From positions 1-32,209 of the forward strand of contig JANREL010000071.1 in the NCBI GenBank assembly GCA_030758355.1: a stretch of 32,209 nucleotides of DNA. Reading direction: 5' to 3'. A model generated the notes under the pieces. The model ran no database searches. It saw nothing but the letters and a program-made list of their open reading frames with translations, and was not told where the DNA came from. The translations under genes were made by a program, and so were the position numbers. Origin of the DNA: Polaribacter sp. (GTDB lineage: Bacteria; Bacteroidota; Bacteroidia; Flavobacteriales; Flavobacteriaceae). Shown here in pieces: positions 9,201-21,422 of the stretch. Each line of letters starts with the position of its first letter. Position 1 is the first letter of the stretch.

Positions 9201-10505
9201 TTAACTCAACGCTTCTTTATAAGTTTTCAAACAACGTTCTCTTGCAAAAGAATGTGCTACAATTGGTTTTTGATATGTAAATTCCTGAAAATCAGGAACC
9301 CATTTTTTGATATATGCCAAGTTTTTATCAAATTTTTCTATTTGAGATGTTGGATTGAAAATTCGGAAATAAGGTGCTGCATCCACTCCCGATCCGGCAA
9401 CCCATTGCCAATTGCCAATATTGCTTGCCATTTCATAATCGTGTAGCTTCTCTGCAAAATAGGCTTCACCCCATCTCCAATCTATTAATAAATGTTTGCA
9501 TAAAAAACTACCCACCAACATACGAACTCTGTTGTGCATAAATCCTGTTTCGTTTAATTGACGCATTCCGGCATCAACTAAAGGATATCCTGTTTTTCCT
9601 TCGCACCAAGACTTGAATTCTTCTTCATTATTACGCCATAAAATTCTGTCATATTTTGGTTTAAAGCTTTCTGAAACTGTGTGGGGAAAATGCCATAAAA
9701 TTTGCATAAAAAATTCGCGCCAAATCAATTCATGCCAAAATATCTCATTTTTTTCTGAAATTGCTTTTGCTACCATTTTACGAATACTTACTGTACCAAA
9801 ACGCAAATGAGGCCCTAATTTGGAAGTAGCATCTTTCGCAGGGAAATTACGAGTTTCCTCATATTCTTGGATCATCTTTGAGGAAACTGTGTAAGGAGCT
9901 ATTCTTTGATTAGAAGTTACGAATCCAATATCAGCAAGTGTTAAGAATTGAAAATCAAACTCATTTAATAGATTTTTGAGATGATTTTCTGAATTGAAAT
10001 GTACCAGTTTTTCATTCTTGAACTTCTCTTTCCAAGCCCGCATGAATGGTGTGTACACTACATATGGATTTCCATCTTTTTTTACAATATCATTTTTTTC
10101 AAAAATTACTTGGTCTTTGAAAGTGAGAAATTCAATGTTTTTTTTCTGGAGAAAACTTCCTATTTCTTGATCGCGCTTTGTGGCGTACGGTTCGTAATCG
10201 TGATTTGCAAAAACAGCTTCAATAGCATATTTTTCTGAAATTTTTTTAAAAATTTCTATGGGTTTTCCATTGAAAATAGCAATATCTCCAGCGTTTTTAT
10301 TCTGTAATTCTGCACGCATTTGTTGCAACGTTTCATGAATGAAAGCTACTCTTGCGTCATTTTTTGGTATTTTATCTAATATATCAGTATCAAAAATAAA
10401 TATAGGAAGGACTTTGTTTTTTGATTGTAGTGCATTGAAAAATCCGCAATTATCATCCAAACGCAAATCTCTTCTGAACCAAAATATGTTAATTTTTTCT
10501 ATCAT
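9201..10505 (-). CDS. phrB: Class I deoxyribodipyrimidine (CPD-type) photolyase
   Basis: 434 aa. It begins with the antenna-binding Rossmann domain (FWFRRDLRLDDN) and continues with the FAD-binding helical domain: LGPHLRFGTVSIR, the WREFFMQ helix, EGKTGYPLVDAGMRQL, FMHNRVRM, DWRWGEAYF, NIGNWQWVAGSG and DAAPYFRIFNP. The Trp positions of the electron-transfer chain (in DWRWG and GNWQW) and the Asn expected to face the flavin N5 are present, so it should be a normal light-driven CPD repair enzyme. The folate or deazaflavin antenna cannot be fixed from sequence. It is the last gene of the downstream transcription unit, 4 bp after the SRPBCC gene, and is followed by an AT-rich terminator. It is one of four paralogues in the island. 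Confidence 0.93.
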   Translation of the reverse strand: MIEKINIFWFRRDLRLDDNCGFFNALQSKNKVLPIFIFDTDILDKIPKNDARVAFIHETLQQMRAELQNKNAGDIAIFNGKPIEIFKKISEKYAIEAVFANHDYEPYATKRDQEIGSFLQKKNIEFLTFKDQVIFEKNDIVKKDGNPYVVYTPFMRAWKEKFKNEKLVHFNSENHLKNLLNEFDFQFLTLADIGFVTSNQRIAPYTVSSKMIQEYEETRNFPAKDATSKLGPHLRFGTVSIRKMVAKAISEKNEIFWHELIWREFFMQILWHFPHTVSESFKPKYDRILWRNNEEEFKSWCEGKTGYPLVDAGMRQLNETGFMHNRVRMLVGSFLCKHLLIDWRWGEAYFAEKLHDYEMASNIGNWQWVAGSGVDAAPYFRIFNPTSQIEKFDKNLAYIKKWVPDFQEFTYQKPIVAHSFARERCLKTYKEALS

Positions 10506-10509
10506 TTAA

Positions 10510-10971
10510 TTAGATTTCTCCAAAGATTTCTATCATCTTTTGTTGTCTATAATTGAATATCTCTTCCAATTTTGGCTTCACGATAAATGGATGCACCATT
10601 TGTCCTAAAATTCCTAAAGGAACTTTGTAATCTATAATATCTTCTAATTCAACGCCACCTTCAATCTTATTGATAAAATGTTTGTGATGCCAAAGTGCAT
10701 AAGGGCCATATAATTGAACATCTACAAAGTATTTTTTTTCTTCAAAGTGTGTGATTTCTGAAACCCATTTGGTTTTGATTCCTAAAATTGGTGTTACCAA
10801 ATACTGAATAATTTGCCCTGCAAACATCGGTTTTTCAGCACCAGAAATGATATCAAAACTCATATATGATGGTGTAATTATTTTTAAATTTCTAGGATTT
10901 GACAAAAATTTCCAAGCTTCATCAACAGTTATTGGAAGTTGTTGTTTTTTGTGTACAGTATAAATTTTCAT
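10510..10971 (-). CDS. SRPBCC (START/Bet v1-like) family protein
   Basis: 153 aa, no signal peptide or membrane segment. The opening (HKKQQLPITVDEAWKFLSNP.NL) and later motifs (GPYALWHHKHF, GVELEDIIDYKVP) are typical of the SRPBCC ligand-binding fold, specifically the group often annotated as cell-division-inhibitor-like in photolyase neighbourhoods. The fold binds hydrophobic ligands in a deep cavity; ligand and reaction are unknown. It is packed 1 bp after tspO and 4 bp before phrB, which ties it to the photobiology unit. I would not assign a function beyond the fold. Confidence 0.8.
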   Translation of the reverse strand: MKIYTVHKKQQLPITVDEAWKFLSNPRNLKIITPSYMSFDIISGAEKPMFAGQIIQYLVTPILGIKTKWVSEITHFEEKKYFVDVQLYGPYALWHHKHFINKIEGGVELEDIIDYKVPLGILGQMVHPFIVKPKLEEIFNYRQQKMIEIFGEI

Positions 10972-10972
10972 C

Positions 10973-11437
10973 TTAATTATAAATTAAAACATATAAATTT
11001 AGTGAGGTTGCAATACATAGCCATATCATGTATGGTGTCAATAAGAATGAATATTTCCCAATATTTTTACTCAAGTTTAAGTAGAAGTAAAATATCACCG
11101 CGGTCAGCAATATAATTCCAATCAAAGCTAAAAAAACTAAATGTTGATTAAAAAACAAAAAATTCCAACTCACATTTAAAATGAATTGAATTACAAATAC
11201 GATTGTAAGGTGTTTTGTGTCTTTTTTAGAAGTGAAAAGTTTCGCCAAATAAATTGAAAAACAAATCATGATAGTTGTCCAAGCAACTCCAAAAACCCAC
11301 CCTGGAGGAGTCCAAGGAGCTTTGTTTAAGTTTGAGTACCAATCAGAAGTAGGACCATTATTCATTAACCAACTCCCAAAAGCTAAACCTCCAAAATTGA
11401 TTGCAAAAAAAATAAAGAAATATGAAATTGGCTTCAT
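10973..11437 (-). CDS. tspO: TspO/MBR family tryptophan-rich sensory protein
   Basis: 154 aa with five hydrophobic segments, the usual TspO topology. The conserved Trp/Pro-rich loop is clear (NKAPWTPPGWVFGVAWT at about residues 38-54), as are the middle motif NVSWNFLFF and the last-helix tail. TspO proteins bind porphyrins and, in bacteria, influence tetrapyrrole and carotenoid regulation and stress responses; in the light, bound protoporphyrin can be degraded. Its place among photolyases fits a photo-oxidative stress role, but that is inference. It starts 4 bp after the small Lacal_2735 gene. Confidence 0.93.
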   Translation of the reverse strand: MKPISYFFIFFAINFGGLAFGSWLMNNGPTSDWYSNLNKAPWTPPGWVFGVAWTTIMICFSIYLAKLFTSKKDTKHLTIVFVIQFILNVSWNFLFFNQHLVFLALIGIILLTAVIFYFYLNLSKNIGKYSFLLTPYMIWLCIATSLNLYVLIYN

Positions 11438-11441
11438 TTTT

Positions 11442-11615
11442 TTATTTTTTTTCTTCTAAAAGCTTTATTTTTTTTAGAATATTATCAGCTTCTAAATACT
11501 TTTGATCACTTTCGCTTCTATTGATAGCTTGTAATTTAAAAGCTTCTTGCATGATTTTTTTGTATTCTTCATGAAGTTTTTCAACTTCTGATTTCTTTTT
11601 AAACAATCCAAACAT
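11442..11615 (-). CDS. Lacal_2735 family small protein
   Basis: 57 aa, absent from the ORF track because of its length; I translated it by hand. It begins MFGLFKKKSEVEKLHEEYKK and continues with an all-helical, charged sequence (MQEAFKLQAINRSESDQKYL, then EADNILKKIKLLEEKK). The MFGLFKKK start and NR..SDQK..EAD core match what I recall as the Lacal_2735 family, which is common in Flavobacteriaceae and has no known function. It lies 4 bp after gpx and 4 bp before tspO, so it is almost certainly cotranscribed. Both strong helices and the lack of a signal point to a cytoplasmic, possibly coiled-coil protein. Confidence 0.8.
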   Translation of the reverse strand: MFGLFKKKSEVEKLHEEYKKIMQEAFKLQAINRSESDQKYLEADNILKKIKLLEEKK

Positions 11616-11619
11616 GGCT

Positions 11620-12090
11620 TTATTTTAGGTGATTTGTGATTTTTGAACTTGTAGGTTTTGTGATAGAGAAGTAATAATCAATCAATTCTCCATTTTTATC
11701 AACCAAATATTTTTGAAAGTTCCATTTTACAGAAGAGCCCTTTTTTCTATTTAAATCTTTGGAAGTAAGCCAAGCATATAATGGATGTTGATTGTCGCCT
11801 TTAACGTCAATTTTTTCAGTCATCAAAAAAGAAACTCCATAATTTACTTCGCAAAATTCCTGAATTTCATTGGCATTTCCAGGTTCTTGTTTTCCAAATT
11901 GATTGCAAGGAACTCCAATCACAACTAACTTATCTTTATACGTTTGATGTAATTTTTCCAAATCTTCATATTGTGGTGTAAAACCACATTTAGAAGCAAC
12001 ATTCACAAACAACAGATACTTGCCTTTAAAATCTGAAAATTCAATTTTTTTTCCTTGTAAACTATTGATTTTGATTTCGTGTAAACTCAT
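11620..12090 (-). CDS. Glutathione peroxidase family (thiol peroxidase)
   Basis: 156 aa, thioredoxin-like fold. The catalytic Cys35 is in NVASKCGFTPQY, with the partner motifs VIGVPCNQFGKQEPG and VKWNFQKYLVD supplying the Gln and Trp of the active site. It uses Cys, not selenocysteine. Bacterial members usually take electrons from thioredoxin rather than glutathione and reduce hydrogen or lipid peroxides. No signal peptide is present, so it should be cytoplasmic. It sits 4 bp after the SDR gene. A peroxidase in a light-response operon is consistent with removal of peroxides formed under illumination, which is inference. Confidence 0.92.
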   Translation of the reverse strand: MSLHEIKINSLQGKKIEFSDFKGKYLLFVNVASKCGFTPQYEDLEKLHQTYKDKLVVIGVPCNQFGKQEPGNANEIQEFCEVNYGVSFLMTEKIDVKGDNQHPLYAWLTSKDLNRKKGSSVKWNFQKYLVDKNGELIDYYFSITKPTSSKITNHLK

Positions 12091-12094
12091 TTTT

Positions 12095-12778
12095 TTAGAT
12101 TTTAAAACTCACAATCCCACAATCCAATTCAAAAATTTGACCCGAAATTGATAACGCTTTCTCAGAGATTAAAAAATTAGCCAAATCTGCAACTTCATTG
12201 GGCGATAAAAACTTTTTCAATGGATGACGGTCAGTGATGTTTTCAATCATTTTTTCGTTTCGCAATAATTTTGAGGCCAAATCAGTGTCAGTGACAGTTG
12301 GTGCAATCGCATTGACACGAATTGTTGGTGCCAATTCGGCTCCTAATGATTTTGTCAAACCTTCAACTGCCGATTTTGCTGCAGCAACACTTGCGTGAAA
12401 AGGCATGCCTAATTTTGCTGCAACAGTGCTAAACAGTAAGATAGAAGGATTTTTTCCGTTTTTTAAAACGGGCAAAAAATGTTGGATTGCTTTTACAGCA
12501 CCAATCACATTGATTTCAAAATCTTCTCTGAATTCCTCCAATTTCAGTCTTGAAATTGGTTTTAAATTGATGCTTCCAGGACAATAAATGAGGCTATCCA
12601 CTGCTTCAATCGTTGGCAATTCATCCGTCAAAATATCACACGAAAAGTGTGTTAAATTCGGATGTAATTGTGCAGGCTGATTTCTACTGATGTTTATGAC
12701 TTGATTATCTGAAACTAATGCATTTACAATAGCATTTCCAATTCCTCTGCTTCCTCCAATAACTACTATTTTCTTCAT
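12095..12778 (-). CDS. Short-chain dehydrogenase/reductase with altered active site
   Basis: 227 aa, classical SDR Rossmann fold: cofactor motif GGSRGIGNAI at residues 8-17, SLIYCPG in place of NNAG, then FSTVAAKLG and SVAAAKSAVEGLTKSL. The usual YxxxK is read as VAAAK, so the catalytic Tyr is Val while the Lys is kept. The Ser/Thr position in FSTVAA is plausible. The C-terminal stretch (ISGQIFELDCGI) is standard for the family. It may be a non-canonical oxidoreductase or a binding protein. It is packed between the 71-aa protein (6 bp) and gpx (4 bp). Substrate is unknown. Confidence 0.82.
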   Translation of the reverse strand: MKKIVVIGGSRGIGNAIVNALVSDNQVINISRNQPAQLHPNLTHFSCDILTDELPTIEAVDSLIYCPGSINLKPISRLKLEEFREDFEINVIGAVKAIQHFLPVLKNGKNPSILLFSTVAAKLGMPFHASVAAAKSAVEGLTKSLGAELAPTIRVNAIAPTVTDTDLASKLLRNEKMIENITDRHPLKKFLSPNEVADLANFLISEKALSISGQIFELDCGIVSFKI

Positions 12779-12784
12779 ATTCTA

Positions 12785-13000
12785 TTAAGGTCTTCCTTTT
12801 AAACGCTTTTCAATTTTCTGTTTGACAAGTGTCAAGCGTTTCATTTGATCCATAATTTCAGGATCTTTTTTTATTTTGTAAAATTCATTTAATTCTAAAA
12901 TCAAAGCTTTTACTTCTCTTGACGCTAAAATTCTTTCGCTAGTAGTTTTGAAAGCAAAATTTCTGTTTTCAAATTCTAGCGCTCTTTCTAATAATTCCAT
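12785..13000 (-). CDS. Unknown 71-aa protein, tandem paralogue A
   Basis: I do not recognise a named family. The protein is short, charged and helical, with the core RALEFENR..., TTSERILASREVKALILELN and RLTLVKQKIEKRLKG. It is clearly paralogous to the 75-aa protein 72 bp upstream: same length class, same order of motifs, and roughly 60 percent identity by eye over the shared part. It has no signal peptide, no membrane segment and no Cys. It is 6 bp ahead of the SDR gene and in the same unit. The paralogy and intact frames indicate real genes. Confidence 0.75.
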   Translation of the reverse strand: MELLERALEFENRNFAFKTTSERILASREVKALILELNEFYKIKKDPEIMDQMKRLTLVKQKIEKRLKGRP

Positions 13001-13072: not shown

Positions 13073-13300
13073 TTATGCAGCAGGGACTTTAAAGCCTTTT
13101 AAACGCTTTTCAATTTTTTGTTTGATCGCTGTTAAACGCTTCATTATTTCCATAATTTGCTGATCTTTATTTTGTTTATAAATCTCGTTCAAACTTAAAA
13201 TCAATGATTTCACTTCTCTTGATGCCAAAATTCGATCACTTGTAGTTACGAATTTCATCGGTCTTTGCTCAAATTCAAGAGCTCTGTGTATGATGTCCAT
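13073..13300 (-). CDS. Unknown 75-aa protein, tandem paralogue B
   Basis: Paralogue of the 71-aa protein downstream. The shared core is RALEFEQR, TTSDRILASREVKSLILSLN, IMKRLTAIKQKIEKRLKG; it differs by a short C-terminal tail (FKVPAA). Predicted all-helical and cytoplasmic, with no known domain that I can name. It starts 27 bp after folE. Conservation of ILASREVK and KQKIEKRLKG between the copies marks the likely functional surfaces. Two diverged copies side by side suggest an old duplication kept by selection, perhaps as a heteromer; that is inference. Confidence 0.75.
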   Translation of the reverse strand: MDIIHRALEFEQRPMKFVTTSDRILASREVKSLILSLNEIYKQNKDQQIMEIMKRLTAIKQKIEKRLKGFKVPAA

Positions 13301-13327: not shown

Positions 13328-14026
13328 TTAATAATTTAATGCATTTTGTAATTCTGCGATTTTTTCTGGTGTATTAAACACACCCCCAAAATAAGAAGTA
13401 ACTGTTGCTGAAGTATCATCTTTTATCCCTCTTGATGAAACACACAAATGTTTTGCGTCTATAATAACAGCAATGTTTTCAGTTTGTAAAGCTGTTTTTA
13501 ATTCCTCAGCAATTTGGTTGGTTAAACGTTCTTGAACTTGTGGTCTTTTTGCATAATATTGCACGATTCTGTTCAATTTTGACAATCCAATTACTTTTCC
13601 TGAAGAAATATATGCTACATGCGCTTTTCCAATAATTGGCACAAAATGGTGCTCACAATTAGAATAAAAAGTGATGTTTTTTTCAACCAACATTTGGTTG
13701 TACTGATATTTGTTATCAAACAAAGCGATTTTTGGTTTGTTTGCAGGATTCAATCCAGAAAAAATTTCGTCAATATACATCTTTGCAACTCTGTTTGGAG
13801 TTCCTTTTAATGAATCGTCTGTTAAATCTAAACCCATTACATCCATAATTTCAGCAAATAATGAAGTAATTTTTTTCTTTTTTTCTTCGTCAGAAATGGC
13901 GAAAGCATTTGGTTTCATAGGAGTTTCAATTCCTGTGTACAAATGGTCATCTCCAATTTCTTCGAATGAAAATCCATTAATTTGTTGGTCTGTTTCTTTT
14001 TCTTTTAGTATGACTTCTGTAATCAT
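13328..14026 (-). CDS. folE: GTP cyclohydrolase I
   Basis: 232 aa. The family core is complete: GTPNRVAKMYIDEIF, the zinc site Cys-Glu-His-His in SNCEHHFVPIIGKAHVAYI, GLSKLNRIVQYYAKRPQVQERLT, and the second zinc Cys in AKHLCVSSRGIKD. The enzyme converts GTP to 7,8-dihydroneopterin triphosphate, the first step to folates and other pterins. Placed in a unit with photolyases that may use a folate antenna (methenyltetrahydrofolate), it probably boosts pterin/folate supply when the island is on; that is inference. The first 30 or so residues are a variable extension. A hairpin sits between the preceding gene and its ATG. Confidence 0.94.
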   Translation of the reverse strand: MITEVILKEKETDQQINGFSFEEIGDDHLYTGIETPMKPNAFAISDEEKKKKITSLFAEIMDVMGLDLTDDSLKGTPNRVAKMYIDEIFSGLNPANKPKIALFDNKYQYNQMLVEKNITFYSNCEHHFVPIIGKAHVAYISSGKVIGLSKLNRIVQYYAKRPQVQERLTNQIAEELKTALQTENIAVIIDAKHLCVSSRGIKDDTSATVTSYFGGVFNTPEKIAELQNALNY

Positions 14027-14089: not shown

Positions 14090-14365
14090 TTATCTTTTTG
14101 ATATAGAGTTGTTTGATATTGATTTTTGTCTTGAACATTTAAAGCGTCCTTGCTCAAAAGTTCGTAATTTTTCATGTTTTGTTTTTCTTCCTTGAACTCG
14201 CGCCCTCCACATTTTGAAACTTTTCGGTTTCATTTCTTTGCGCATCAATTCAATGACTTCTTGTTCTTTTAAACCAAATTGAAACTGAATTGCTTCAAAT
14301 GAAGTTCTATCTTCCCAAGCCATTTCAATAATTCTATCGATTGCTATTTCGTCTAAATTTTCCAT
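14090..14365 (-). CDS. DUF2805 / TIGR03643 family protein
   Basis: 91 aa. The segment RIIEMAWEDRTSFEAIQFQF-GLKEQEVIELMR-MKPKSFKMWR is the hallmark of the TIGR03643 (DUF2805) family, which looks like a small helix-turn-helix fold and is of unknown function. The final 25 residues or so (EQGRFKCSRQKSISNNSISKR) look less conserved than the core. The ATG overlaps the end of the preceding gene in TGAATG, so the two are translationally coupled. A DNA-binding role is suggested by the helix-turn-helix-like pattern only; I do not claim it. Confidence 0.82.
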   Translation of the reverse strand: MENLDEIAIDRIIEMAWEDRTSFEAIQFQFGLKEQEVIELMRKEMKPKSFKMWRARVQGRKTKHEKLRTFEQGRFKCSRQKSISNNSISKR

Positions 14366-14788
14366 TCAATACAATTCGTATAATTTGCTGTTTTCAATTT
14401 TTAAGTCAACTAGTTTATCGAGAAAACTTTTATTTTCCCTCAACAAATTATTCTTTTTAAATTGAACAAAATTTCCTTGCGCATGAATGCTAAAGGTTTG
14501 CGTGTTATATATGTGCAATTGATAAAAAGGAATTGCCCAACTATAATTTTTTAAACCTTTGTTTATGTGAACTATAATTCCTTTTTCTCTCAATTCAATA
14601 TTTCCATAATTGATATCAGAAACATTGTTCATCATTGATGAAAATTTGGGACTAACTTGTTCAATCATCATCCTTTTTGAACCAACTCCACCCAATTTTA
14701 GTGCCTTCAAAAATGTGTAAGGTTTTCCTAATAAGACTTCAAATACTTCTTTAGCTTCTTTGTTATTGTAAGTTGTGTCGTAAATCAT
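14366..14788 (-). CDS. Unknown 140-aa protein at the head of the second unit
   Basis: I do not recognise a family. The ORF track starts at a TTG (14800), but this lies inside the -7 promoter box, so I prefer the ATG at 14788 (MIYDTTYNNKEAKEVFEVL). Visible features are GVGSKRMMIEQVSPKFSSMM, a beta-rich middle (GNIELREKGIIVHINKG, WAIPFYQLHIYN) and a Leu-rich helical end (KSFLDKLVDLKIENSKLYELY). No signal peptide, membrane segment or Cys is present. It is the first gene behind one copy of the duplicated operator module and is coupled to the DUF2805 gene, so it belongs to the photobiology unit. Confidence 0.75.
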   Translation of the reverse strand: MIYDTTYNNKEAKEVFEVLLGKPYTFLKALKLGGVGSKRMMIEQVSPKFSSMMNNVSDINYGNIELREKGIIVHINKGLKNYSWAIPFYQLHIYNTQTFSIHAQGNFVQFKKNNLLRENKSFLDKLVDLKIENSKLYELY

Positions 14789-14797
14789 ATCCAAAAT

Positions 14798-14840
14798 CAA
14801 AGGTAGTTATGTTTAATGAATAATCAATAACGTTAAACAT
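14798..14840 (-). promoter_or_regulatory. Promoter-operator module, copy 2
   Basis: On the plus strand CAAAGGTA (minus TACCTTTG, a perfect TAnnTTTG box, 14798-14805) is followed by the inverted repeat ATGTTTAA (14809-14816), 16 bp, TTAAACAT (14833-14840). A minus-strand TTG at 14827-14825 lies 19 bp from the box, a good -33 spacing, inside the inverted repeat. The arrangement is nearly the same as at 21379-21422. A factor bound here would cover the -33 region, which suggests repression. Confidence 0.7.
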
Positions 14841-14878
14841 AAATTAACAAAATATTATCTTTTAAAAAATCAACTTAT

Positions 14879-16366
14879 TTACTCATTTTTAAGCATTCTT
14901 GTTCGATCTCTTAGGGTATGTTTTAATAATATTTTGTGGCTCTCGTGAATAACTTCTGGGTCATTTCTTAAACTCCACAAAATTTCACTTGCTTTTTTTC
15001 TTGCAGATTTTGCATTTACAATTGGATAAGGATAGTCAATACCCAATTCAAAATTGTTAAATTGTTGATCTAAAGGGGTCATTAAATACGGTTCATGAAT
15101 GAATGGTAATGGTAGGTTTTTCAATTCAGGAACCCATTCTTTTATAAAATGAGCATCTTCGTCATGTTCCAAACTATTTTTTACAGGATTGTAAATTCGG
15201 ATGTTATTGATGCCTGTTTCAGCGGCTTGCATTTGCAACTGTGGAAAGTGAATTCCAGGCTCAAAATCCAAAAACATTTGCGATAAATGATGCGTTGCTT
15301 CTTGCCAAGGTTGCCACAAAATGTGCGTAAAAAAGGATACTAATAGCGAGCGCATTCTAAAGTTTAAATACCCAGTTTCGTTCAAACAACGCATACTTGC
15401 ATCTACCAGAGGAAACCCTGTTTTTCCTTCCATCCAAGCTTTTTTATATTCAGCAGAAATACTTTTTTTCAATTTATGATAGCCTTTATTGATGCTGGCA
15501 TTTTCCATAGTATGCTCCATTTCAAACTTTTGAATAAAATGTGCTTGCCAACGTAATCTTGAAATAAATGGGCCAAAATGACGTTTGTTTTGTTCGGTTT
15601 TAACGGTTTGTGCTTTCTGAAAAACTTGTCTGATAGATAAATTTCCCCAAGCAATATAGGGAGACAATCTACTGCTACTTTTTCTTGATAATGACGGTTT
15701 TGAAATATGAAACATGTAGTCTTTGTGACGATCTTCAAAAAATGAATTGGCATATCTCCATGCCATTTTTGTACCTCCTTTTTGGAAAATTTTAGAAATT
15801 GGTGTTGATAAATCTGTTACTAAAAATGATTTTTCTAACTGATTAATTTCATCAATACTTAGTAATTTTTCTGATTTAATTTCATTCAAAATTTGTGGTT
15901 CATTCATGTAATCTTCCCACTTTTCAAACCAATCTTCTCGATCAAGCAATCCTCTTAAAACACCATTATTTATGTTTTCAACCCATTCAATAGAGTAGTT
16001 TCTGCAAAATCTTTTAAATTCTTTATCTCGATTAAAAGTGATGAGTAAACCTGTTTCTTGATGCGAAAAAACACTATGAATGGAATAATAATTTAAAATT
16101 TGATTGAAAGCAGTTACAACTTCGGTGGTCACACACAAAACCTTTGAGTTATGAATTGCTAAATCTTCATTCAAATCAACTAAAGACTGCTTGATGAAAT
16201 TCCAATGACGTTCGTGATAATGAGGGTCTTCTAACAAAGATTTTTCAAAAACATATAAGAATAACACTCGTTTTTTGGATGATAAAGCATTAAAAATAGT
16301 CTCATTATCTTGTAAACGTAAATCACGTTTTAGCCAAACAACTGATATTTCTTCTTTAGTATTCAT
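14879..16366 (-). CDS. Photolyase/cryptochrome family protein of atypical type
   Basis: 495 aa. The N-terminal antenna-like domain begins VVWLKRDLRLQDNE, and the FAD domain has SSSRLSPYIAWGNLSIRQ, RLRWQAHF, EGKTGFPLVDASMRCL, YLNFRMRS and IRIYNPVKN. It departs from ordinary photolyases around residues 371-385: where the usual NxGxWQW motif stands it reads HFPQLQMQAAETG. By eye this replaces both the Asn facing the flavin N5 and the FAD-proximal Trp. A tail of about 90 residues follows (ARKKASEILWSLRNDPEV). I recall similar sequences in other marine bacteria, so it is a subfamily, not damage. Repair specificity, or a sensor role, is open. Its ATG overlaps the (6-4)-type gene by 11 bp. Confidence 0.85.
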   Translation of the reverse strand: MNTKEEISVVWLKRDLRLQDNETIFNALSSKKRVLFLYVFEKSLLEDPHYHERHWNFIKQSLVDLNEDLAIHNSKVLCVTTEVVTAFNQILNYYSIHSVFSHQETGLLITFNRDKEFKRFCRNYSIEWVENINNGVLRGLLDREDWFEKWEDYMNEPQILNEIKSEKLLSIDEINQLEKSFLVTDLSTPISKIFQKGGTKMAWRYANSFFEDRHKDYMFHISKPSLSRKSSSRLSPYIAWGNLSIRQVFQKAQTVKTEQNKRHFGPFISRLRWQAHFIQKFEMEHTMENASINKGYHKLKKSISAEYKKAWMEGKTGFPLVDASMRCLNETGYLNFRMRSLLVSFFTHILWQPWQEATHHLSQMFLDFEPGIHFPQLQMQAAETGINNIRIYNPVKNSLEHDEDAHFIKEWVPELKNLPLPFIHEPYLMTPLDQQFNNFELGIDYPYPIVNAKSARKKASEILWSLRNDPEVIHESHKILLKHTLRDRTRMLKNE

Positions 16367-17888
16367 CCAAATGGTTGATAATATGATGTGCTTTTTCTTG
16401 AATGGCCGTAATTTCTGATGCAGGCATTTTGTTGAGTATACTGTACATCATTTTCATTCTGAAATTGGAGGCTAATTGTGCTCGTTTTTCATCCAAAAAA
16501 TTCCAGTATAAACTATTGAAAGGACAGGCGTTTTTGGTTGTTTTTTCTTTGTAATTATAGGCGCAAGAACCGCAGTAATTACTCATTTTTTGAATGTAAC
16601 TTCCTGAGGAAACATAGGGTTTTGTGGCAATTTTTCCACCATCAGCAAACTGGCTCATGCCTCTTGTATTGGGCAATTGCACCCATTCTATGGCATCTAC
16701 GTAAATTCCCAAATACCAAGCGTCAATTTCATCAGGATGAATTTGTGCGAGCAACGCAAAATTTCCAGTAATCATCAACCGTTGAATGTGATGTGCATAG
16801 CCATTATCTAATGAATTTTTTACGGCATTTTTCACACAATTCATGTTCGTTTTTCCTGTCCAAAAAAACGATGGAAGTTTATTTTTATTTTGTAAAAAAT
16901 TTTCTGTCTTATAATTTGGCATCAACATCCAATACATGCCACGCATGTACTCGCGCCAACCAATAATTTGACGTATAAACCCTTCTACTTGCGAAATGTC
17001 AATTTCATCTGATCTTTCACTATAGGTTTGCAACACTTTTTCGATAATTTCTTTAGGAGAAATCATTTTGGTGTTCATTGCAAAAGATAATTTTGAATGA
17101 AAAAGAAAAACGGTATCTGTGTGCATAGCATCCTGATAATCACCAAAATGAATCAATAAATGCTCGCAAAAATAATCCAATTGTGCTAAAGATTGTGCTC
17201 GGTTTATAGGATATTCAAAATACTTTGCATTGATATTTCCTATGGTTTTGATACCTGTATTTTTGATTTCTTCAACAATAGTTGAAACATCATTGTCAAA
17301 ATTTTTTGTTGGTGGAATCAATACTTCTTGATTCCATTTTTTTCTGTTGGATTTATCGTAATTCCAAATGCCACCTTCAGGTTGATTATTGACCATTAGA
17401 ATTTGGTGTTTTTTACGCATTTCACGATAAAAATTTTCCATCAAAAATTGCTTTTTTCCTGAAAAAAATATCGCTAAATCCTCTCTTTTTGTATAAAAAT
17501 GCTCCGTTGAAAAAACAGTAGATTTTATGCTGATTTGATTGCAAAAGTCAGCTAGTTGTTTGTCTAATCGATATTCATCAGGTTCTTGATATTCAAATTT
17601 ATCAATATTGTGTTCATTGAATAGCGATAGTAAATTTTCAGTGAGTTGTTGTTTGTTTTTAGAGTCATTTATTTTTACATAAATTACCTTATGATTTTCA
17701 CTTTCAATATTTTCAGCAAAAGCTCTCATAGCAGCAAAAAATCCAACCACTTTTTGAATATGATGCGTTACATAATCCGTTTCTTGACGCATTTCAAAAA
17801 TGCAATAAATTACAGTATCATCCACATTAGAAAACCAAGAATGATTGCTATTTAATTGATCACCAAGAAGTAAGCGTAATGTATTCAT
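16356..17888 (-). CDS. Iron-sulfur bacterial (6-4)-type photolyase (FeS-BCP)
   Basis: 510 aa. It starts LRLLLGDQLNSNHSWF, the family signature. Four cysteines at 351, 439, 442 and 455 (NMNCVKN, YCGSC, ACPFNSLYW) match, offset by one, those I recall binding the 4Fe-4S cluster of Agrobacterium PhrB. HHIQR (366-370) gives the HHxxR motif of its active site, and the GYAHHIQRLM and WVQLPNTRGMSQFADGG blocks are typical. The family repairs (6-4) photoproducts using FAD and usually a dimethylribityllumazine antenna. It overlaps the next gene by 11 bp and starts 1 bp after the DASH gene's stop. All key residues are present. Confidence 0.93.
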   Translation of the reverse strand: MNTLRLLLGDQLNSNHSWFSNVDDTVIYCIFEMRQETDYVTHHIQKVVGFFAAMRAFAENIESENHKVIYVKINDSKNKQQLTENLLSLFNEHNIDKFEYQEPDEYRLDKQLADFCNQISIKSTVFSTEHFYTKREDLAIFFSGKKQFLMENFYREMRKKHQILMVNNQPEGGIWNYDKSNRKKWNQEVLIPPTKNFDNDVSTIVEEIKNTGIKTIGNINAKYFEYPINRAQSLAQLDYFCEHLLIHFGDYQDAMHTDTVFLFHSKLSFAMNTKMISPKEIIEKVLQTYSERSDEIDISQVEGFIRQIIGWREYMRGMYWMLMPNYKTENFLQNKNKLPSFFWTGKTNMNCVKNAVKNSLDNGYAHHIQRLMITGNFALLAQIHPDEIDAWYLGIYVDAIEWVQLPNTRGMSQFADGGKIATKPYVSSGSYIQKMSNYCGSCAYNYKEKTTKNACPFNSLYWNFLDEKRAQLASNFRMKMMYSILNKMPASEITAIQEKAHHIINHLDEY

Positions 17889-17889
17889 T

Positions 17890-19197
17890 TTAAAACAAGG
17901 TTTTTTCTAACCAAATATTCCTGAATTTATGGTTTCCATCATAATTTTGTGCTTGCAACTGCGTATTGAATTTTCGATCTCTAGGATCATTGCCAACTCC
18001 AGAAACATACAACCAATTCCCATAATTGCTATGCACATCATAATCCAACAACATCGATTCAAAATAGGCGGCTCCAATTCTCCAGTCCAACAATAATTCT
18101 TTCGCAAAATACGAAGCAACATTCTGTCTTCCTCTGTTACTCATCCACCCTGTTTCTTTCAATTCAATCATGTTTGCGTTCACAAAATCATCTTTTGTTC
18201 TTCCTTCTATCCAATCTGTGATGCCTTTTTTATTGAAATTCCAATGATAATCTCTGTCTAAAATTCCCCCAATTTTAAAGATTTTAGAGCCGTATTTTAG
18301 CGAAATAAATTTAAAATAATCTCTCCAAATCAATTCAAATACAATCCAATATGTTGAGTCGTTTGCGCCAAATTCCTTTTCATAACTCTTTAATTTCCAA
18401 TAAATCATTTTTGGGGAAATACTGCCATTTGCCAACCAAGGAGAAAATTTTGTACTGTAATCAATACCAACTAAACCATTTCTGGTATTTTTATAAATGG
18501 ATGCTTTTTTGCTTTCAAAAAGGTAGTACTCCAATCTTTTTAAACCTTCAGTTTCTCCACCTTTAAAAGGAAAAGCAGTATTTCTATGCGTGACAAAAGT
18601 TTTAAAACCCAATTCTTGTAAACTCGGAATTTTTGTGAAATTTTCTATCAAATTTGACTCACTCAATTTTGAAATCGGAATTTGAGCATCAATTTTTACT
18701 TTTTTTTCCACACCTTTTCTGAATTCAGTAAACACGTCAGGAATGTTTGAAAAATTAGTTGAAACTGCATTTGGATGATATAAAAATTGATCAAAATCTT
18801 CTATCAATTGAACAGTTGGTAGCTTCTTTTTAATAGCGATGCATGTGTCAACTTCATCTCTTGTCCATTCTTTTTGAGTGTAGATAGATTGTACGGAAAA
18901 ATCAGCACAAATTTTAGGTAACACCTCGTCAGGACTCGAAAAATAGGTAAGAAGTGTAATGTTTAAATTTGCTAAATTTTCTTTTAAATCCGTTATAGTT
19001 TCAATCAAAAACTGAGCTCGGAATTTTTCAGTTTTTTTAAATCCGAAGACATCTTTTTCAAAATACTTAGGATCAAAAAAATAGACGGCAATTACTTTTT
19101 CATGATGGTGAATTGCTTTAAAAAGAGAAACATTATCAGAAATTCGAAGATTATTTCGAAACCAAATTATGCTTGTTGTGTTTTGTTTCTTCTGCAT
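17890..19197 (-). CDS. DASH-family cryptochrome
   Basis: 435 aa. DASH hallmarks are [13 protein letters not shown] at the start, [93 protein letters not shown] and the C-terminal [11 protein letters not shown] and [14 protein letters not shown] proteins bind FAD and a folate antenna and repair CPD lesions in single-stranded DNA or loop structures; some also signal. Its ATG lies 31 bp inside the DUF2256 gene, and it is followed 1 bp later by the (6-4)-type gene, so translation is coupled. The residues are complete; the length is near the lower end for the family. Confidence 0.94.
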
Positions 19198-19307
19198 TTT
19201 TCGCTACAATATTTTACGTTTTCCCAGTTTTTCTCCCATTTTTTTCTCCAAGTGTAAGGCTTGTTGCAAACCAAACAATTCTTTTGAGGAAGGTTTTCTT
19301 TTTTCAC
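19167..19307 (-). CDS. DUF2256 zinc-ribbon-like small protein (GTG start)
   Basis: 46 aa, not in the ORF track. Reading from a GTG at 19307, 3 bp after the SDR stop, gives [34 protein letters not shown] and SEKCRRNK. Two Cys pairs (CxxC and CxxxxC) and the TWRKKW motif match the DUF2256 family, a small putative zinc protein found beside cryptochrome-DASH genes. An in-frame stop two codons upstream leaves GTG as the only sensible start. Its last 31 bp overlap the DASH coding start. Function is unknown; DASH co-occurrence suggests a shared role, which is inference. Confidence 0.85.
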
Positions 19308-19310
19308 TTT

Positions 19311-20732
19311 TTACTTATTGATGTTGTTGATCATTCCATTAAAAACAAACCAATGAAATGGCATTACTGCATACCAATACAATCTACCAGCAATTCCAGT
19401 AGGTCTAAAAGTTGCTGTTTGATAAAGGAAATTTCCTTCTATTTTAAATTCTAACCAAGCTTCTCCGGGTAAAATCATTTCTGCATACAACAACAATTTC
19501 CCTTTTTCTTTATCTGCATAAATTACTCTCCAAAAATCCAAAGCATCACCAGCATTTAGCTCTGTTGGATGTCTTCTGCCTCTTCTTAATCCGGCTCCAC
19601 CAAAAAAATGATCTAAAAATCCTCTTATTTTCCACAAAAAAGTGCCATAATACCAACCCGTTTCACCGCCAATCGCCCAAATTTTCTCACGTACATTTTC
19701 CAGATTTTTCAATTTTCTTTTTTTTGAATCTTTAAAACAACCAAATTCGGGAACATTGATAAATTCGTGCACATAATTTTTTAATTTTCCACTACTTATG
19801 TAAGAATCTTTCCAACTTGAGATAATGCTGTTTTGTTCTATTTTTTTGAAAGCCAATTCTACAGCTTCTTTGTAAGTCATTGGATTGACATTCAAAATTT
19901 TATTGATATCACTTTTATTGCCAATTACTTCAACACCCATTGAGTTTACTAATGAACTCGCCAATTTATAAGAAGTTGATGTTACAAAATACAACCAATA
20001 AGAAGATAATTTTGGGGTCATTACAGGAACCGTTATAATCCATCTTTTTAACTTTCTAACTTCAGAAAATTGTAATAACATTTCTTTATAAGTCAATATT
20101 TCAGGACCAAAAATGTCATACGATTTATTGAAAACTTCTTTTTTATTCAGTGAATTATGAAGAAAGCTCAACACATCTCTTATTGCCAAAGGCTGTGTTT
20201 TTGTATTCAACCATTTGGGAGCTATCATAGCGGGTAATTTCTCAACCAAATCTCTGATGATTTCAAAAGACGAACTTCCAGAACCTACAATAATTCCTGC
20301 TTTGAAAGTTGTTAACGCATATTTTTCAGAAGTTAAGGTGTTTTCAACATTTTTTCTTGATAATAAATGTTTGGAAAGCTTGGTGTCATTGGTGATTCCG
20401 CTTAAATAAATGACCTGTTGTATGCTTGATTTTTCGGCAAAACGTTTAAAATTAAGTGCACATTTTTCTTCCAAAATATGAAATTCTCTGGCAGAATTTG
20501 TCATGGAATGAATCAAGTAATATGCAAAATCAATATCTGTAGGAATTTTTTCAATACTTTTTGAGTCTAAAAAATCAGCTTCAACTAAAATTATTTGCTC
20601 TCTTTTTTTAAAGTAATTTTCAGCTCTTTTTAAATCTCTTACAGGGCAAACAATTGTGTGGCCATCATTTAATAATAATGGAATCAAGCGTTTTCCTATA
20701 TAGCCTGTTGCACCTGTAACTAGAATTTTCAT
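19311..20732 (-). CDS. SDR family NAD(P)-binding protein with C-terminal DUF2867
   Basis: 473 aa. Residues 1 to about 230 form an atypical SDR (NmrA-like) domain: VTGATGYIGKRLIPLLL, an acidic loop, YYLIHSMTN, IYLSGI and TTFKAGIIVGSGSSSFEI. The C-terminal half (WAIGGETGWYYGTFLWKIRG, FLDHFFGGAGLRRGRRHP, FRPTGIAGRLYWYAVMPFHWF) is DUF2867, a putative ligand-binding domain. This fusion is common near photolyases in many bacteria; its substrate is unknown. It is packed 1 bp after the flavin reductase gene and 3 bp before DUF2256. The GxTGxIG cofactor motif is complete. Confidence 0.9.
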   Translation of the reverse strand: MKILVTGATGYIGKRLIPLLLNDGHTIVCPVRDLKRAENYFKKREQIILVEADFLDSKSIEKIPTDIDFAYYLIHSMTNSAREFHILEEKCALNFKRFAEKSSIQQVIYLSGITNDTKLSKHLLSRKNVENTLTSEKYALTTFKAGIIVGSGSSSFEIIRDLVEKLPAMIAPKWLNTKTQPLAIRDVLSFLHNSLNKKEVFNKSYDIFGPEILTYKEMLLQFSEVRKLKRWIITVPVMTPKLSSYWLYFVTSTSYKLASSLVNSMGVEVIGNKSDINKILNVNPMTYKEAVELAFKKIEQNSIISSWKDSYISSGKLKNYVHEFINVPEFGCFKDSKKRKLKNLENVREKIWAIGGETGWYYGTFLWKIRGFLDHFFGGAGLRRGRRHPTELNAGDALDFWRVIYADKEKGKLLLYAEMILPGEAWLEFKIEGNFLYQTATFRPTGIAGRLYWYAVMPFHWFVFNGMINNINK

Positions 20733-20733
20733 G

Positions 20734-21360
20734 TTATTTTGTGCTTTTTATTGGTCTTTGATAAGAAAGTTGTTTCTTAAATGTTGGCGTAGCATACGTA
20801 TCCAAACCATTGATAGCAACCACTTTTCCTAATGACAAATTGATGAGTCCATCTTCTTGTAACAATTCATCATTCACATATAATTCCTGAATTTGAGCAA
20901 CAATCAACATCACATCATTAGAGGGAACATAAATTTCTTCGATAAATTTCATGTTCATTTGTACAGGGGCATTTTTTACAAAAGGAGCTTTAAAATCTCC
21001 CTTAAATTCCGGTTCTAGATTTGTCATTTCAAACTCTGAAATTTCTTCAGGATATTTTGCAGAAGTATGGTGCGCATCTTCTATGATATCTTCCCAAATA
21101 TGATTGATGGTAAAAGTTCCGGTTTCTTTGATGTTTTTATAGGTGTCTCTTGGAACTGTAGTTGGTCTTAAAATAAATCCTAAAGTTGGTGGATTTGAAC
21201 CTAAATGAGTTACAGAACTAAAGATTGCAACATTGGTAATTCCTTCATTTGAAATAGTTCCTAATAAATTTGCAGATTTAAATCCCGAACAACTGTTGAT
21301 GAGATTTATTTTATAAATTTTATGAAGTTTATTTATGTCTTTTGTGTCAAAAAATTTCAT
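20734..21360 (-). CDS. Flavin reductase-like (FMN-binding split barrel) family protein
   Basis: 208 aa. The fold is seen in SCSGFKSANLLGTISNEGITNVAIFSS, PPTLGFILRPTTVPRDTYKNI, TGTFTINHI, the DAHHTSAKYP stretch and INGLDTYATP near the C-terminus. This is a flavin-reductase-like split-barrel protein that would bind FMN or FAD; members reduce flavin or work as flavoproteins. First gene of the upstream unit, behind copy 1 of the duplicated promoter-operator module. A role in flavin supply or state for the photolyases is possible but not shown. I see no signal or membrane segment. Confidence 0.85.
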   Translation of the reverse strand: MKFFDTKDINKLHKIYKINLINSCSGFKSANLLGTISNEGITNVAIFSSVTHLGSNPPTLGFILRPTTVPRDTYKNIKETGTFTINHIWEDIIEDAHHTSAKYPEEISEFEMTNLEPEFKGDFKAPFVKNAPVQMNMKFIEEIYVPSNDVMLIVAQIQELYVNDELLQEDGLINLSLGKVVAINGLDTYATPTFKKQLSYQRPIKSTK

Positions 21361-21378
21361 TGATTCAATTTTACATTA

Positions 21379-21422
21379 CAAAGGTATAAATTGTTTAACC
21401 AATAACTTTTTTTATTAAACAA
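21379..21422 (-). promoter_or_regulatory. Promoter-operator module, copy 1
   Basis: Plus-strand CAAAGGTA (minus TACCTTTG, 21379-21386) is followed 4 bp later by the inverted repeat TTGTTTAA (21391-21398), 16 bp, TTAAACAA (21415-21422). The same box, half-sites and spacer length occur at 14798-14840, and AATAA is shared at the same spacer position. The leader to the flavin reductase ATG would be about 13 nt. A -33 TTG at the usual distance is not obvious here. Confidence 0.7.

Follow-up and report, generated by a model that had tools for sequence, protein, structure and literature searches.

The window analysed here, the whole 32,209-nucleotide stretch of Polaribacter sp. DNA, contains two minus-strand gene units, each headed by a copy of the same promoter–operator module. 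Unit 1 comprises 11 genes running from 14788 down to 9201, and unit 2 comprises six genes running from 21360 down to 14879. Co-transcription within each run is an assumption based on strand and close spacing, and several gene names are based on similarity alone. Unit 1 opens with a 140-aa protein that has no Pfam or NCBIfam match (14366–14788), followed by a DUF2805/TIGR03643 protein (14090–14365), GTP cyclohydrolase I (FolE; 13328–14026), a 75-aa protein (13073–13300), a 71-aa protein (12785–13000), a short-chain dehydrogenase (12095–12778), a glutathione peroxidase (11620–12090), a 57-aa protein (11442–11615), a TspO/MBR family protein (10973–11437), a 153-aa protein that is SRPBCC-like by eye and has no Pfam match (10510–10971) and, as the last gene, a DNA photolyase (9201–10505). 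Unit 2 is composed of a flavin reductase-like protein (20734–21360), an NAD(P)-binding NmrA-like/DUF2867 protein (19311–20732), a 46-aa zinc-ribbon-like protein judged DUF2256-like by eye (19167–19307), a DASH-family cryptochrome scoring above the TIGR02765 cut-off (17890–19197), a photolyase-related protein (DPRP; 16356–17888) and a terminal cryptochrome/photolyase family protein (14879–16366). The adjacent 71-aa and 75-aa proteins resemble one another, an apparent tandem duplication inside the island. The TspO/MBR-family gene in the photolyase unit could possibly connect the island with tetrapyrrole handling.

The module consists of an inverted repeat followed by a promoter −7 box. On the minus strand, 14839–14798 reads TGTTTAA-N16-TTAAACA-N4-TACCTTTG, with the operator dyad at 14810–14839 and the −7 box at 14798–14805, 4 bp downstream. 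The second copy, at 21421–21379 of the same strand, reads TGTTTAA-N16-TTAAACA-N5-TACCTTTG, with the dyad at 21392–21421 and the box at 21379–21386, 5 bp downstream. The box fits TAnnTTTG, the −7 consensus of flavobacterial RpoD (PMC3587595). The window contains exactly two full modules (dyad plus TACCTTTG), one ahead of each unit, and exact dyads with inner spacers of 14–19 bp number two against 0.01 expected from shuffled windows. A TGTTAA on the minus strand at 14844–14849, 10 bp upstream of dyad 1 and in direct orientation, is a possible third half-site; in 12 of 25 cases the promoter of the 140-aa gene has the same hexamer at offset −10. The TTAAACA-TTTTG-TAnnTTTG spacing is tightly kept in island promoters, and these promoters have no clear or conserved −33 element (TTG).

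A first-pass annotation, made from sequence alone, had described two near-identical modules heading about 17 genes. Both copies are indeed present, and the count holds (11 + 6 = 17, including the 57-aa and 46-aa genes), as does the absence of a third full copy: no third dyad is found in the window at N16, even when two mismatches are allowed. Two distances needed correction, the inner spacer being 16 bp in both copies rather than 16–17 bp and the gap from half-site to box being 4 and 5 bp rather than 3–4 bp. The AATAA reported at the same spacer position in both copies is there, but the A/T-rich spacer is unconserved in relatives; a functional AATAA was rejected on this ground, and the likeness is probably due to chance.

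Four further sites are found in the same genome outside the window. The site at a FAS1 gene is exact, those at crtI and proteorhodopsin (C81:22804-22833, just upstream of the gene) carry one mismatch, and that at merR carries two. Single one-mismatch matches are no evidence by themselves, because a scan of this genome returned eight forward matches and seven in the reversed control; two of the five sites with one mismatch count for more only because of their position at crtI and proteorhodopsin. The clearest TAnnTTTG box at the FAS1 site is out of register.

The −7 box occupies three distinct positions relative to the dyad. In island promoters it starts at about +35 from the dyad start. In the merR–crtI intergenic dyad it lies inside the repeat, immediately before the right half-site, and at merR's own dyad it overlaps the left half-site, with the merR start codon located in the right half-site. 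Across merR loci the start of the box falls at −6 in 33 cases and at +15 in 22, and almost nowhere else, so that the steps between registers are 21 and 20 bp, close to two helical turns. merR is flanked by both dyads (merR–crtI and merR start) in most of the 30 best loci. The form with the box inside the dyad is present in 60 of 151 Flavobacteriaceae genomes, with no reversed-control matches. Apart from crtI, the genes found behind it are those for FAS1 (17), GLPGLI proteins (11), a mevalonate-kinase-like protein (3) and MsrA (2), with single cases at a CrtW-like ketolase, proteorhodopsin, flavin reductase and the 153-aa gene. Judged by similarity, the FAS1, flavin reductase and 153-aa gene types use both geometries, in different species.

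The island-type motif including its −7 box is found in 66 of the 151 genomes, where it makes up 79 distinct sites; the reversed control has none. The first gene behind these sites is most often a TetR_C_23 regulator (28) or the 140-aa gene (25), followed by FabH-like (6), DUF2452 (3), the 153-aa gene (3) and FAS1 (2). Single cases include a glutathione peroxidase (L059), a 57-aa protein (directly behind the L036 site) and a 71-aa protein (the first ORF found behind the L008 site, 292 nt downstream), each similar to its counterpart in unit 1. A scan of 85,462 genomes gave at least 80 records; of the 80 considered, 77 are flavobacterial or other Bacteroidota by title and three are titled Firmicutes. 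In this set, 71 of 80 sites head a member of the regulon gene families: TetR (33), the 140-aa gene (12), the 153-aa gene (10), flavin reductase (8), FabH (4), DUF2452 (2), photolyase (1) and FolE (1). For about half of the window genes, the switch is found immediately ahead of a homologue in another genome.

A FabH-like ketoacyl synthase turns up repeatedly behind the switch (L005, L014, L024, L029, L045 and L055). In part of the genomes only (L033, L039 and L049), a conserved small ORF of about 36–48 aa containing FVISLFINWLGCLK or a near variant sits between the promoter, which it follows directly, and the TetR gene.

Proteorhodopsin promoters contain the same dyad. A rhodopsin search gave hits in 71 of 301 genomes, including that of the window. 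In 30 proteorhodopsin upstream regions the dyad is exact in 16 and has a single mismatch in 11 (27/30); shuffled sequences reach this level in 0.2%. Ten further promoters from MerR-positive genomes are less clean, with four within one mismatch. Pooled, a dyad within one mismatch is found in 29 of 36 MerR-positive and 1 of 10 MerR-negative genomes, and the MerR-negative stretches searched were longer, a bias that works against the observed difference. One assembly that is 73% complete (G149) has an island-type site behind an unrelated gene together with an exact dyad at proteorhodopsin, and its MerR may possibly be missing merely from the assembly. The island-type site looks less like a chance match because of the exact proteorhodopsin dyad in the same genome.

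The MerR protein in question is the single MerR_1 match in the genome of the window. It is encoded on contig C67 and followed by crtI and crtB, the latter named by sequence and position without a family search. An ECF sigma factor gene (L081:8813-9307) is divergent to it. The protein contains an N-terminal winged helix (PF13411, E = 7.8e-16) and a B12-binding_2 cap domain (PF02607). The Wx9EH and ExHxxG motifs are found in all 30 best loci, with E190, H192 and G195 of ExHxxG invariant; Wx9EH is missing in G077, and the His that follows its Trp is Gln in most relatives. The later SxT...GG part of the B12 domain looks degenerate, and the PF02310 profile gives no match in this protein. Of the light signature defined by SignatureFinder (GxxW, EH, GxxH and GxxxP; PMC11796333), GxxW, EH and GxxxP are invariant, and the main group has another residue in place of the GxxH Gly (NEIH). 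The score against the NCBIfam CarH model NF052513 is 70 bits, below the cut-off of 400. The sequence nevertheless aligns to CarH, and a structure model (pLDDT 86) has Thermus thermophilus CarH as its top PDB matches (5c8d/5c8e, E ~5e-12). The half-sites TAAACA, TGAACA (at merR) and TAGACA (in the RKWE genomes described below) all fit the CarH core TnnACA. Tandem 11-bp direct repeats like those of CarH operators are absent; there is only the inverted dyad with N16 and, in some promoters of the 140-aa gene, the additional TGTTAA half-site.

Sites follow this MerR across the family. Counting either geometry, they are found in 87 of 122 MerR-positive genomes and 2 of 29 MerR-negative ones; when only good genomes are considered, the figures are 80/110 and 0/16 (p = 1.4e-8). 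The compared genomes are related and partly incomplete, so p-values overstate independence. One genome (G060) has the TetR gene without MerR, and its TetR promoter has no dyad. In another (G080), 81% complete, no MerR was detected and the dyad is kept.

The recognition helix and the half-sites change together. Genomes whose divergent MerR has an RKWE recognition helix in place of RIWE carry TGTCTAA-N16/17-TTAGACA in 7 of 9 cases, against 7 of 142 others (p = 3.7e-7), the latter figure being close to that of the reversed control (matches in 8 genomes). TGTTTAA promoter sites are found in none of the 9 RKWE genomes and in 87 of 113 others. The altered sites lie upstream of merR in three genomes (G141, G099 and G032) and at the TetR promoter in two (G038 and G040). 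Two divergent MerRs that retain RIWE (G025 and G007) retain TGTTTAA. The RKWE type may be a single clade. A joint change of both half-sites with one helix residue is hard to explain without direct contact.

These comparative data, in the absence of binding data, make it very likely that the regulator of the dyad is the CarH/LitR-like MerR. The first-pass annotation had proposed one dedicated regulator and mentioned LitR/CarH as a possibility only. The first proposal is supported by the limited set of recurrent gene families, many homologous to window genes, behind the conserved motif in relatives; the second is supported by co-occurrence, the sites flanking merR, the TetR promoter of the MerR-less genome and the covariation of helix and half-site. 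The module is not specific to the island: it belongs to a family-wide regulon that also covers carotenoids, proteorhodopsin and other genes.

In the explanation we consider best, and likely overall, both window modules would be operators of the MerR encoded on C67 upstream of crtI and crtB. One winged-helix domain would occupy each half-site (TGTTTA/TAAACA), and MerR bound to the dyad over the promoter would silence that promoter in darkness. On illumination MerR would leave the DNA, probably because its adenosylcobalamin is photolysed, and photolyases, cryptochromes, pterin synthesis, carotenoids, proteorhodopsin and antioxidant genes would come on together. The motif, its targets, the link to MerR and the residue–base covariation are shown by computation. 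Repression rather than activation and the oligomeric state are inferred, as are the B12 chromophore and the light signal, which are taken from the protein family; there are no binding or expression data. Repression is favoured at crtI and merR because the operator is placed over the −7 box there, and one sign throughout is favoured because the same gene types use both geometries. The three box registers are compatible with a repressor, which tolerates such variation.

Against this explanation stand the imperfect B12 signature, with the replaced GxxH Gly, the missing PF02310 match, the low CarH-model score and the Gln in Wx9EH, and an operator that is a 30-bp inverted dyad where known CarH proteins use 11-bp direct repeats (PMC9304148). 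Island promoters are also without a clear −33 element, which could mean activation. The same MerR might act with opposite signs. It would be a classical activator at island-type promoters, in which the −7 box follows the dyad and the dyad covers the −33 region, and a repressor of crtI and of itself. Apart from the lack of a conserved −33 TTG, the tightly kept spacing between TTAAACA and the box speaks for this reading, as does the fact that MerR proteins are often activators at unusually spaced promoters (PMC9478572). Against it, target types shared by both geometries would need opposite regulation in different species, and the LitR/CarH proteins known so far have been described as acting by repression (PMC6739363, PMC9758184); we regard it as unlikely.

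Two other owners of the dyad are less probable still. The TetR-type regulator (PF17931) could bind by autoregulation, its gene being the commonest downstream of the motif (28 of 79 sites), and palindromes in their own promoters are common targets of TetR repressors. We rejected this candidate, which is very unlikely: ten site-bearing genomes, several of them 99–100% complete, have no TetR gene, the genome with TetR and without MerR has no dyad there, and the half-sites covary with the MerR helix. The dyad might instead be an alternative sigma element, for example of the ECF factor whose gene adjoins merR on C67, and the fixed distances to the −7 box would agree with this. A sigma element needs one fixed register, but the box is found near −6, +15 or +35; the dyad is symmetric and both of its halves change jointly in RKWE genomes; and the −7 box is of the ordinary RpoD type (PMC3587595). 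This reading was rejected on register and symmetry and is likewise very improbable.

The preferred reading, a MerR repressor released by light, can be set beside known systems. The class I LitR proteins of T. thermophilus and Bacillus megaterium (CarH) share with the flavobacterial protein the MerR-type DNA-binding domain, the B12-binding_2 cap, Wx9EH and ExHxxG, a gene beside crt genes and the half-site core TnnACA (PMC9304148, PMC8156234). Their operators consist of three or four tandem 11-bp direct repeats (PMC9304148, PMC8156234), whereas the flavobacterial operator is a 30-bp dyad, an inverted repeat with half-sites 23 bp apart that is used in three promoter registers, and the regulon extends to photolyases, proteorhodopsin and FAS1. 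The Pseudomonas class II LitR regulon (PplR1, PmlR2) is the nearest functional parallel. It shares phrB, cryB, folE and a short-chain dehydrogenase as targets, and a repressor binds paired TGTACA half-sites over −35 or downstream of the start (PMC9758184). The operator there is TGTACA-N12-TGTACA (PMC9758184), and these proteins are without the full B12 module and work with a LOV protein, whereas the flavobacterial MerR keeps a second B12 domain with ExHxxG. Myxococcus xanthus CarA and CarH are also carotenoid-gene repressors whose operator overlaps the promoter; inverted repeats were once proposed for CarA and later read as direct repeats (PMC9304148), and the literature sections bearing on this system mention no photolyase or rhodopsin targets. 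MliR of Bizionia argentinensis is likewise a MerR-like regulator of a marine flavobacterium, but it acts in iron homeostasis, has another domain architecture and has no described B12 module (PMC9478572). MliR was rejected as the dyad regulator; it is not the C67 MerR. No paper on a CarH operator in Bacteroidetes was found in the literature searched, and papers outside that set are possible.

A bolder reading is that a single light regulon spans the Flavobacteriaceae. Its master switch would be a MerR photoreceptor of the B12 type that jointly controls proteorhodopsin, carotenoids, photolyases and redox genes through an inverted repeat in three helically phased registers, a layout undescribed for CarH. 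We consider this view more likely than not. The light-response network appears coherent by inference; there are no experimental data on light response or binding. The control of flavobacterial proteorhodopsin expression has been stated to need further work (PMC3587595), and a photolyase cluster is reported to be enriched in proteorhodopsin-bearing flavobacteria, with no regulator found in the relevant sections of that report (PMC5932025). The dyad offers a common, directly testable regulator link for the two. If the bolder reading is correct, this MerR is the missing proteorhodopsin regulator in these bacteria and their light response is tied to B12 supply. If B12 is the chromophore, a major marine group would need for its light response a vitamin that many of its members must import. 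The residue–base pair (Ile/Lys in the helix, A/G in the half-site) provides a ready test of CarH-type DNA reading. One genome (G136; L324 and L327) encodes both MerR types, RKWE and RVWE. The half-sites near its merR are mixed, TGTCCAA/TTAGACA for example, which makes this genome a natural instance of sites shared or divided between two regulators.
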